In this document: positions 37,814 through 60,187 of the stretch, one piece after another
Position numbering within the stretch: the stretch's first letter is position 1
How the letters are laid out: every line of letters starts with the position of its first letter
Source: Stappia stellulata DSM 5886
Lineage (GTDB): Bacteria > Pseudomonadota > Alphaproteobacteria > Rhizobiales > Stappiaceae
Length of the DNA stretch: 64,000 nucleotides
Direction: 5' to 3'
NCBI RefSeq assembly: GCF_000423705.1
Contig: NZ_AUIM01000004.1
Span: 124,001-188,000, forward strand
Made by a program: the position numbers and the translations under genes
The notes under the pieces: model-generated
Told to the model about the DNA's origin: nothing
Databases searched by the model: none
The model's input: the letters and a program-made list of their open reading frames with translations, nothing else

Positions 37814-38001
37814 CGTCCCCGGCGGGCGGCTTTGCACAGATTGCAGGGCAACCGGGCGTTTTTGCCGGTGCATGCGCACCAAGCGCCTGCTAGAACCCCG
37901 CGACCCGGGACGCCGAGCGCGCGGGATCGCGACATGACGGATCGAACGGACAACGCGGGGCCGCGCGCGCCGTTCTGCAGCCTGCGGGCGAGGATCGAAC
38001 C

Positions 38002-55102: not shown

Positions 55103-55711
55103 TCAGGGCGCGAGCCAGCATCCCGTCCAGTCGCCTGCGCCCCGTTCGAAGCGCGCCCGAGCGTGGCCTCTGGCCGCGAGATAGAGCCACTCCATTTTCA
55201 TTACCTCGGCCATCAGCACGGCAAAATTCGCCCGTCCCTCGTCCAGGCGCTCCGGAGCGTAGACAGCGGCACCGGGCGCGGGGATTTCGGTGCCGGGACC
55301 GGTCTCGATCTGGTAACAGGCACGGCTCATCGCGCGTGTCTCCGACCAGGCGCGCTCGGCCGTTTCGCCATCGCCGAGAACGGTCATCCTGCAGGTCAAT
55401 CTGAGCTGAATTTTGCAATTCGAATCGTAGATTTCGCAAAATCCGTTCGGATTCTGCGAAACCTGATCGACTTTCCCGCTTCGAATGTCCGTGTGGAACC
55501 GCAGCGTCAAGGGCGATGTCTCCACGCCCCTGAGAACCATTGTGCGGACATCCGGTGCGCCCTGAGGGGTGACCGTTGCAAGCGCCGGTGTGTGAAACGC
55601 TGAACGCCGGTTGCGCACGCCATCGCTGAGCCGCTTGAAGATCTCTTCAAGGGTCAGATCCAGATCGTCGTAAAAGGCGGGAAACGGCGGTTTTTCGGCG
55701 GAAATCGGCAT
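55103..55711 (-). CDS. Pyridoxamine 5'-phosphate oxidase-fold protein
   Basis: A 202-residue FMN-binding split-barrel protein. The alphaproteobacterial pattern is clear: FYDDLDLTLEEIFKRLSDG, HTPALATVTPQGAPDVRTMV and LRFHTDIRSGKVDQVSQNP, with the C-terminal EWLYLAARGHARARF in the position of the PNPOx dimerisation region. It differs from genuine PdxH, so the substrate is uncertain. It converges with the rod-like gene (7 bases between stops). Confidence 0.88.
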   Translation of the reverse strand: MPISAEKPPFPAFYDDLDLTLEEIFKRLSDGVRNRRSAFHTPALATVTPQGAPDVRTMVLRGVETSPLTLRFHTDIRSGKVDQVSQNPNGFCEIYDSNCKIQLRLTCRMTVLGDGETAERAWSETRAMSRACYQIETGPGTEIPAPGAAVYAPERLDEGRANFAVLMAEVMKMEWLYLAARGHARARFERGAGDWTGCWLAP

Positions 55712-55810
55712 GCGGGATCTCAGGACTGCAAATGACGAAGAGCGCGGCTGCGACCTTTGAGTCATGCGGCAGATCGGGAGAGACGGCAAGATGTTGGGGA
55801 GACGGCTTAA

Positions 55811-55928
55811 AAAACGAACGCCCACCGGAGGGAGGAGGACCGGTGGGCGTCGTTTTCTAATGTGACCGGCATCGGGAGGAGAAATGCCGGTCGGGTCGGA
55901 CCCGAGGCGCTGGGAGGAGGTGCGCCCG
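55811..55928 (-). ncRNA. Three-hairpin anti-Shine-Dalgarno sRNA cluster, unit 2 (CcsR/cuckoo-like)
   Basis: In minus-strand order: hairpin C (55906-55926, stem GGCGC, with partial extension), hairpin B (55864-55892, stem GACCGGCAT) and hairpin A (55811-55856, stem ACGCCCACCGG extended by AAAACG across a bulge). All three loops are 11 bases and on the minus strand contain CTCCTCCC. Hairpin A is followed by a T-run on the minus strand, so it should also act as terminator. This motif is complementary to Shine-Dalgarno sequences. The order DUF1127 gene then CTCCTCCC hairpins is that of the ccaF1-CcsR loci (cuckoo RNAs) of Rhodobacter. Ends are approximate. Confidence 0.72.
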
Positions 55929-56068
55929 AACCCGATGAGCAACATATGGGTGACTCGCGCAGGCAATTCCAGAGCTGTTCCTGCATAGCTGACCCGCGAC
56001 AAGCGGGCAGCAATTCAATTTCGTGAATGTTGCACTGCATGCAACCACAACGTGCTGTTTCAAATAGC

Positions 56069-56106
56069 AAAAAGCGCCACACGATCAAGTCGGGCGGCGC
56101 TTTTTT
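56069..56106. terminator. Rho-independent terminator behind the second DUF1127 gene
   Basis: AAAAAGCGCC and GGCGCTTTTT around a 17-base loop. It lies 40 bases behind the DUF1127 stop and before hairpin C, so it could separate the mRNA from the downstream sRNA cluster. Confidence 0.8.
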
Positions 56107-56145
56107 GAGCACATATAGAGCGACCCGAAGAAGGGCCGCGACAGA

Positions 56146-56295
56146 TTAGCGCATGTTGCGGCGGGCAATGAAATCGATGTCGCCGCGGCCGATGCCGAGG
56201 TCGTTCAGTTCACGGTTCGAAAGCCGGGACAGTTCGTCATAGGTGCGGCGGTACGACTGCCAGGAATGATATTTGCGCACGAGAGTGTCGAGCAT
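56146..56295 (-). CDS. DUF1127 domain-containing small protein (unit 2)
   Basis: A 49-residue basic protein: MLDTLVRKYHSWQSYRRTYD followed by ELSRLSNRELNDLGIGRGDI and a short Arg-rich tail. The ELSRLSNRELNDLGI segment is the DUF1127 signature. Some DUF1127 proteins are RNA-binding (CcaF1 of Rhodobacter). TGATGGAG lies ahead of the ATG. It is about 60 percent identical by eye to its neighbour at 56636-56785, which indicates a tandem duplication. Hairpins with CTCCTCCC loops follow downstream. Confidence 0.9.
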   Translation of the reverse strand: MLDTLVRKYHSWQSYRRTYDELSRLSNRELNDLGIGRGDIDFIARRNMR

Positions 56296-56507
56296 GGGAA
56301 ACTCCATCATCGGGATCTGGGGTAAGGCGTGCCACCCGGTGCATGTTGCGCCGCAGCACGTCTCTCTGGCTTTGATATGGGGTGAGTCCGTCGCGGCGAA
56401 ATGCGCTCTTTCGGCATGACCGCCATGCAGATTATGCAAGCCGGAAGACACCCGGTTTGCGCAGTCGGTCAGCAAGGGCGCCGCAGCTCGCGAGGCTCGT
56501 AAAACAT
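56296..56507. other. Leader region between the two DUF1127 units
   Basis: The bases between hairpin D and the start of the second DUF1127 gene hold no gene. A CATAAT element lies near 56434 on the minus strand but without a convincing -35 partner. No RpoH or EcfG-type promoter could be recognised with confidence. Confidence 0.4.
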
Positions 56508-56623
56508 GCGAACGCCCGCCGGAGGGAGGAGGACCGGCGGGCGACGCAAAGGTCGGACGGGATTGGGAGGAGGAGGTCCCGCCCGAACACGCCAAAGAGA
56601 CAGGGGAGGAGGTCTATCTCTTT
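56508..56623 (-). ncRNA. Three-hairpin anti-Shine-Dalgarno sRNA cluster, unit 1 (CcsR/cuckoo-like)
   Basis: Starts 13 bases behind the first DUF1127 stop. In minus-strand order: hairpin F (56594-56623, stem AAAGAGA), hairpin E (56554-56589, stem CGGGCGGGA with TCCCGTCCG, holding one G-U pair only if transcribed from the minus strand) and hairpin D (56508-56547, stem CGCCCGCCGG, with a further GCG/CGC pairing). Each loop reads CTCCTCCC on the minus strand. Hairpin D is the counterpart of hairpin A: its loop is identical, and its stem differs by one compensatory pair (G-C here, A-T there). Exact RNA ends cannot be told. Confidence 0.72.
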
Positions 56624-56635
56624 GATCGTGAGCTG

Positions 56636-56785
56636 TTATCGGCTAGCGCGACGGGCGACGAAGGAGATGTCGCCGCGAGCGATGCCGAGATCGTCAAGCT
56701 CGCGCGTGGACAGGCGCGACAGCTCTGAGACGGTGGTCTGGTAAGTCCGCCAGCTGCGGTACTTGCGTGCAAGTGAGTCAAACAT
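56636..56785 (-). CDS. DUF1127 domain-containing small protein (unit 1)
   Basis: A 49-residue basic protein: MFDSLARKYRSWRTYQTTVS, then ELSRLSTRELDDLGIARGDI and the tail VARRASR. It has the full DUF1127 signature and the same length as its neighbour. The conserved basic face (Arg-Lys-Tyr-Arg-Ser-Trp-Arg) suits nucleic acid binding, as shown for other family members. The three hairpins of unit 1 begin almost at once after the stop codon, so RNA processing from this mRNA's 3' end is the likely way to release the sRNA. Confidence 0.9.
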   Translation of the reverse strand: MFDSLARKYRSWRTYQTTVSELSRLSTRELDDLGIARGDISFVARRASR

Positions 56786-57073
56786 GTTGGCCTCGATGGG
56801 GTGGTGAGCAAGTGCCCGGCTGTGCCGTTGGCGCCGCCCGAATTCGATGACCTTGAAGTAGGTTTTTCGCGCGATGATAAAAAGTGCATTGTTTGCATGG
56901 CTGGCGTGCGGATTGTGCATTGCACCATCCCGGAGCGACACGCCCAGGCGCGGCGCGCATGCCCAGCCGGCGGACGGCGGGCGGAAACCCGGGAGTCTCG
57001 CCGTTTCAACCGGAATCCCGGCCAAATCCGCCGCGCCGGTCCGCCGCGCCGGTTGCCTGTTTTTCCGGCCTTG

Positions 57074-60040
<2,967 letters not shown>

Positions 60041-60187
60041 GGATGGGTCCCTGGTGGCAGTGCCGAGTGTGATGTGTCGCACGATGCGCGAACGGTCTTG
60101 CGACGACGTGATCCGCCCCGAATGGGATGCGGATACGCCGTTCATTCCGGAAAGAGCTTACGCGGGCGGGAGCGAACCCGATTGCGT

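Follow-up and report, generated by a model that had tools for sequence, protein, structure and literature searches.

Differently arranged DUF1127 and alpha-r14 sRNA modules at a putative LsrB-controlled locus of Stappia stellulata

Within a 64,000-nt stretch of DNA from the marine bacterium Stappia stellulata DSM 5886 (the window), two 49-codon DUF1127 genes lie on the minus strand and each is followed by three hairpins. Such a tandem raises the question of whether a single operon was copied, with each peptide sharing a transcript with its sRNAs, or whether the two copies are expressed in different ways. An earlier note had taken the first view, comparing the tandem with the ccaF1-CcsR operon and other cuckoo-type RNAs, and had proposed a covariance-model search as a check. 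The parts that it described are all present. In particular, both proteins match PF06568 and are identical to each other at 32 of 49 residues, while both hairpin sets are full-length matches to RF02344 (alpha-r14; positions 1-123 of 123) that score well above the gathering score of 58.8 bits (Table 1). The genome contains two RF02344 matches in total, both at this locus, and four PF06568 matches. Judged by family match, the hairpin sets are alpha-r14 (NfeR1 or "cuckoo") RNAs beside DUF1127 genes, an arrangement of protein gene and sRNAs for which PMC10253847 uses the name CIN1. On one side of the locus is uvrA (57074-60145, minus), on the other a PPOX-type flavoprotein gene (55103-55780, minus). 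Of 38 family loci, 32 have uvrA in the fetched stretch and 4 have the PPOX gene; among genus loci, the count for uvrA is 9 of 14. The nearest named relatives of DUF1127-A come from Stappia, with 96% identity to the protein of Stappia stellulata SN27-3.

Table 1. Features of the locus, in window coordinates.
Feature	Position	Strand	Basis or remark
DUF1127-A, 49 aa	56636-56785	minus	PF06568 53.3 bits, cut-off 23.3
alpha-r14-A sRNA, three aSD hairpins, 3'UTR of DUF1127-A	56507-56630	minus	RF02344 70.9 bits
alpha-r14-A hairpins	56594-56623, 56553-56587, 56513-56543	minus	
DUF1127-B, 49 aa	56146-56295	minus	PF06568 58.0 bits, cut-off 23.3
Terminator-like hairpin with T run, 3' of DUF1127-B	56069-56105	minus	inverted repeat; fold z -5.30
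alpha-r14-B sRNA, three aSD hairpins	55813-55940	minus	RF02344 73.1 bits
alpha-r14-B hairpins	55896-55935, 55864-55892, 55819-55849	minus	
Unit A LysR-type site TGCACAATCCGCA	56907-56919	minus	column block conserved in 14/14 same-genus loci
Unit A LsrB consensus match	56897-56909		2/8 mismatches
Unit A second strict palindrome TGCAAACAATGCA, adjoining -35	56885-56897	minus	half-site TGC conserved in alignment
Unit A promoter core CTTTTT-N17-CTACTT	56856-56884	minus	alignment by eye; missed by sigma-70 scan
Unit B LysR-type site TGCATAATCTGCA	56426-56438	minus	
Unit B LsrB consensus match	56416-56428		1/8 mismatches
Unit B promoter core CATTTC-N17-CCATAT	56375-56403	minus	by eye
Strict palindrome TGCATGCAGTGCA, upstream of unit C	56031-56043	minus	
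Unit C degenerate LysR-type site CCCGCTTGTCGCG	55995-56007	minus	clearer, TGCACAAAAAGC, in several relatives
Unit C LsrB consensus match	55985-55997		3/8 mismatches
Unit C ATGCA-N32-CCATAT with core CTGGAA-N17-CCATAT	55944-55986	minus	

Both sRNAs fold into three hairpins with z-scores of -8.95 and -6.79, and none of 200 shuffles was equally stable. As the earlier note had seen, every loop exposes the same motif: CUCCUCCC lies unpaired and wholly within the loop in 6 of 6 hairpins (dot-brackets read by eye), and the six identical anti-Shine-Dalgarno (aSD) loops resemble the 3' end of 16S rRNA. The octamer CTCCTCCC occurs nine times in the window, as compared to a shuffle mean of 2.5 and with nine reached in 0 of 100 shuffles, and six of these occurrences are the hairpin loops themselves. 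The last hairpin of alpha-r14-B is followed by TTCGTTTTTT. Further, in an alignment of 31 alpha-r14 sequences from 15 family loci, picked from the RF02344 match list, the loop 1 motif is invariant over nine columns and the loop 2 motif over seven, with the loop 3 motif aligning less cleanly. RNAalifold predicts 30 pairs, of which 23 have at least one sequence changed on both sides with the pair kept; single pairs of hairpin 1 are broken in up to 9 of the 31 sequences. Chance CU-rich hairpins are ruled out by the CTCCTCCC enrichment, the fold stability and the covariation. Overall, RF02344 is found at E <= 0.001 in all 37 family genomes (that of S. stellulata included) and in 47 of the 61 genomes searched, and above its cut-off in 32 of the 61.

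The two modules differ in their layout, taken here as the gap between a DUF1127 stop codon and the aSD hairpin that comes first after it. In module 1, hairpin 1 begins 10 nt past the DUF1127-A stop codon, and the corresponding gap is 10-13 nt in 14 of 14 same-genus loci (window included), too short to hold a terminator. In module 2, the hairpins begin 210 nt past the DUF1127-B stop with a terminator-like hairpin between; here the same-genus loci, again 14 of 14 with the window included, have gaps of 185-977 nt that contain a terminator-like hairpin. A general scan of 55600-57200 returned no minus-strand terminator and no sigma-70-type promoter; the terminator call at 56069-56105 was kept because the hairpin folds well and recurs in relatives. 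In 5 of the 14 loci there is also a middle module, whose gap is 11-12 nt. The relatives compared for layout and promoters are not independent of each other, and for one module each of L116, L119 and L126 the hairpin detector picks up two hairpins instead of three. The differing gaps, which the earlier note had not seen, rule out two identical operons or a plain repeat. The note's proposal that peptide and sRNAs come from the same transcript is favored by the sequence for module 1, with its 10-nt gap, and disfavored for module 2, where the terminator-like hairpin and a separate, conserved promoter-like sequence intervene in all 14 same-genus loci.

Each form of the layout has counterparts elsewhere, in different proportions. 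Across 75 DUF1127 genes in the named loci L041-L115, counting only genes with 600 nt of downstream sequence, 43 are tight (<=30 nt), 11 are split (>100 nt), one is intermediate and the other 20 show fewer than two hairpins. Of the 11 split cases, 8 have gaps of 151-189 nt and come from Rhizobium sp. (two) and 'Rhizobiales bacterium' (six), and a terminator is found in 7 of these 8; the remaining three (Aurantimonas), which have CU-rich stretches in the gap, may be misread tight loci. Other family genera contribute 24 loci, of which 5 lack DUF1127 and 11 have a gap above 100 nt, with a terminator found by script in two of these 11 (L147 and L150). The split form with a terminator is rare outside the genus. 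The tight form recalls ccaF1-CcsR and the split form an NfeR1-type gene that stands by itself; in the genus of the window, a single locus combines the two.

These layouts bear on the possibility that the locus is two copies of a CcsR-type operon, each producing one RpoH-controlled stress transcript with an RNA-binding peptide and processed sRNAs. The layout of module 1 is indeed CcsR-like, with aSD hairpin RNAs directly after DUF1127 as in the ccaF1-CcsR1-4 operon (CIN1) of Rhodobacter sphaeroides, and the tight form is the one seen at 43 of the 75 DUF1127 genes in named loci. The window nevertheless departs from that operon in having two DUF1127 genes, of 49 aa as compared to 71 in ccaF1-CcsR, and a second module divided by a terminator-like hairpin and a promoter-like sequence, a division that recurs in 14 of 14 genus loci. 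The promoters add a further difference: the CcsR operon is driven by an RpoHI/RpoHII promoter (PMC10253847), whereas the DUF1127 units of the window lack an evident one and have LysR-type sites instead. By eye, RpoH likeness is confined to unit C, whose core, read as CTGGAA-N16-CCCATAT, is near the RpoH1 consensus CTTGAA-N16-CCTATAT (PMC8844928), and is absent from units A and B. With this core, the layout of module 1 and the frequency of the tight form in its favor, and the division of module 2 and the LysR-type sites at the DUF1127 promoters against it, a pair of CcsR-type operons appears unlikely.

Judged by sequence, the promoters of the DUF1127 units resemble weak RpoD cores combined with a LysR-type activator site; the weak cores were kept despite the negative sigma-70 scan because they are conserved in relatives. 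In the Stappia promoter rows, the LysR-type site starts 58 nt before a -10-like hexamer, which would place it near -70 to -58 of the start; the TGCACAATCCGCA site of unit A lies at about this distance from its inferred start. In several rows from outside Stappia, a good -10 is missing at +58. The set of 24 promoters was hand-picked, with three rows chosen by letters that include conserved columns and one chosen by alignment; in the other 20 rows, which include one duplicate, C16, G18 and T22 are each found in 19, G23 in 20 and C24 in 18.

Moreover, the TGCA-N5-TGCA palindrome is concentrated at such promoters. Its count for the whole genome is 97 (reversed control 41), yet 867 bp at the locus contain three. 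Within 200 nt upstream of DUF1127 genes, where about 0.004 palindromes per 200 bp are expected, it is found at 14 of 33 genes in the genus, at 6 of 36 in other genera of the family and at 3 of 3 in other families; in the rest of these loci, the respective counts are 2 per 86,576, 2 per 119,319 and 0 per 15,903 bp. The palindrome at 56031-56043 was considered as the site of unit C and set aside; it is not conserved in the relatives' alignment and is probably not a working site. The only other strict TGCA-N5-TGCA palindrome of the window is at 37833-37845. The LysR-type site pattern occurs at 13 places (reversed control 2), three of them at the locus: unit A, unit B and the unit A site read on the other strand. 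The other two DUF1127 genes of the genome (L005 and L006) have no convincing site upstream. Elsewhere in the genome, a TGCA-type composite site with CTTTTC-N17-CCATAC precedes a 74-aa arginine-rich ORF (L192:1500-1853; G000 C2 near 293498), which has no Pfam match up to E 1 and whose end resembles DUF1127 by eye.

The published LsrB/VtlR consensus, GCAT-N3-TG-N3-T (PMC8844928), shows how widely this class of site accompanies DUF1127. Exact matches lie upstream of 33 of 59 DUF1127 genes in the named loci L041-L094 (0.48 in shuffles), 9 of 36 in other family genera (0.34), 7 of 33 in the genus (0.26) and 0 of 3 in other families (0.02), the control being single-base shuffles. At units A, B and C of the window the exact consensus is absent, with 2, 1 and 3 of 8 positions mismatched. 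LsrB-like sites in six Rhizobium-type split gaps are not significant singly (29-44 of 200 shuffles match them), and all six begin 63 nt before hairpin 1.

Unit C appears to have a promoter of its own. With both strands searched, ATGCA-N32-CCATAT has exactly one match at each of the 14 same-genus loci and one in the window, and the inferred start of unit C, near 55938, coincides with the 5' end of the RF02344 match (55940). The degenerate LysR-type site of unit C falls where S. meliloti NfeR1 has its published LsrB site, TGCA-N6-GCAT at -72 to -57 (PMC10746234). The first half-site of unit C is degenerate in the window and in L120, L122 and L126, and is clearer in other loci. Such a promoter-like sequence ahead of alpha-r14-B speaks against the hairpins being mere stability or termination elements in the 3'UTRs of DUF1127 mRNAs, with no action in trans. 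Hairpin 3 and its T run are terminator-like and module 1 does lie within a 3'UTR, as that reading would have it, yet the loop sequence is conserved while the stems vary, and in genus g6 alpha-r14 is found with no DUF1127 in five fetched stretches; we regard it as very improbable.

A candidate for the activator is encoded elsewhere in the genome, where a 298-aa LysR ORF directly follows trxB. The vtlR gene likewise follows trxB (PMC7486931, PMC12595884), and trxB synteny together with LysR domains makes this gene the candidate lsrB. Among the matches listed (25 of 55), the named LysR models of NCBIfam score below cut-off for it. The targets that VtlR activates in Brucella and Agrobacterium include DUF1127 genes and the AbcR sRNAs (PMC12595884, PMC7486931). 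The genome search for ar15/AbcR gave no match, and the controls were also without matches. About 300 nt past the trxB-lysR pair is a sub-threshold ar15/ar14-like RNA (L202:4217-4342, G000 C2), where abcR would be expected, with an ar15 match of 22.9 bits (cut-off 40, E 0.22), a fold z-score of -5.75, a T-rich terminator and a loop with CCUCCUCCC. On the opposite strand, 56-68 nt upstream of this RNA, there is an exact LsrB consensus; this is weak evidence, since a second exact match occurs in the same 6.5 kb, at 1811-1823, before the lsrB-like gene.

Taken together, we give a probability of roughly 0.6 to a CIN1-type locus composed of three LsrB-controlled units, with two DUF1127 proteins and a pair of alpha-r14 sRNAs, both of which would block ribosome-binding sites and one of which is uncoupled from DUF1127. 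The LysR-type activator LsrB/VtlR would control all three units. Unit A would be a DUF1127-A mRNA carrying alpha-r14-A in its 3'UTR, from which the sRNA would be freed by processing, as by RNase E for CcsR; unit B would be a DUF1127-B mRNA ending at an intrinsic terminator; and in unit C a separate promoter would give rise to alpha-r14-B directly as a primary transcript, the end of which would lie at hairpin 3 and the T run. The separation of unit C would enable the cell to make sRNA without protein. The three CUCCUCCC loops of each sRNA would pair with GGAGG-type ribosome-binding sites and repress translation, with transporter mRNAs as the probable targets, as for NfeR1. Counting against this reading are the inexact LsrB matches in the window, the negative general scan for promoters and terminators, and the rarity of the terminator-bearing split form in other genera.

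The earlier note had suggested titrating or decoy sRNAs. In such a model, they would act on ribosomes or anti-Shine-Dalgarno-binding factors and would not pair with particular mRNAs. The six identical loops, which resemble the 16S rRNA 3' end, would suit such a role. However, loops that resemble the anti-Shine-Dalgarno sequence, and do not complement it, would compete for mRNAs and not bind ribosomes. Moreover, NfeR1 pairs directly with the ribosome-binding sites of mRNAs and represses ntrB through its aSD loops, for which loop mutants were tested (PMC10746234). Decoy action is, accordingly, less likely than direct pairing, and quite unlikely overall.

The role of the DUF1127 proteins themselves is disputed. 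CcaF1 has been assigned RNA binding and sRNA maturation (PMC10253847, PMC8625941); an Agrobacterium DUF1127 protein binds a protein, PhoR, and the same source disputes CcaF1-type RNA binding for DUF1127 (PMC12501420). Another DUF1127 gene, in S. meliloti, is under attenuation via an upstream ORF (PMC12218461). With one sRNA copy coupled to DUF1127 and the other not, the locus offers a natural test of DUF1127 action on a neighboring sRNA. It is conceivable, though we hold it doubtful, that Stappia keeps both published cuckoo-RNA routes genus-wide, one copy chained to DUF1127 and one set free by a terminator and promoter, with every unit responsive to LsrB; together the two copies would then set the ratio of free sRNA to DUF1127, and the protein would govern maturation of the chained copy only.

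Several features of the locus are familiar. Like alpha-r14 of S. meliloti (RF02344; NfeR1/Smr14C2), its sRNAs have three hairpins with an aSD motif in each loop and variable stems, and their LysR-type site is similarly far from the start; unlike it, the window has the sRNA twice in tandem, each copy preceded by a DUF1127 gene. The LysR-type sites at DUF1127 and aSD-sRNA promoters, and the LysR gene after trxB, recall the LsrB/VtlR regulon of Rhizobiales (abcR, DUF1127 genes, nfeR1), from which the window differs in that its DUF1127 and alpha-r14 units, with their putative sites, adjoin in one locus. The individual parts and the DUF1127-sRNA association are already published, and the mixed layout may or may not be listed in the cuckoo RNA paper. 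In a search of largely open-access literature, we found no paper on Stappia sRNAs of the alpha-r14/cuckoo kind and none joining LsrB, DUF1127 and alpha-r14 in one locus. What the locus brings together, in conserved form, is three separately studied things: DUF1127 proteins, alpha-r14/NfeR1 sRNAs and LsrB/VtlR.

Two other arrangements were seen among the relatives. In genus g5, a single DUF1127 gene is followed by 12 aSD hairpins that make up four alpha-r14-like sets (L132:2764-3472, reverse-strand coordinates). In genus g6, L133, L138, L148 and L151 have alpha-r14-type hairpins with DUF1127 not found in the stretch, and TGCAT-type palindromes lie 73-121 nt upstream of the hairpins.
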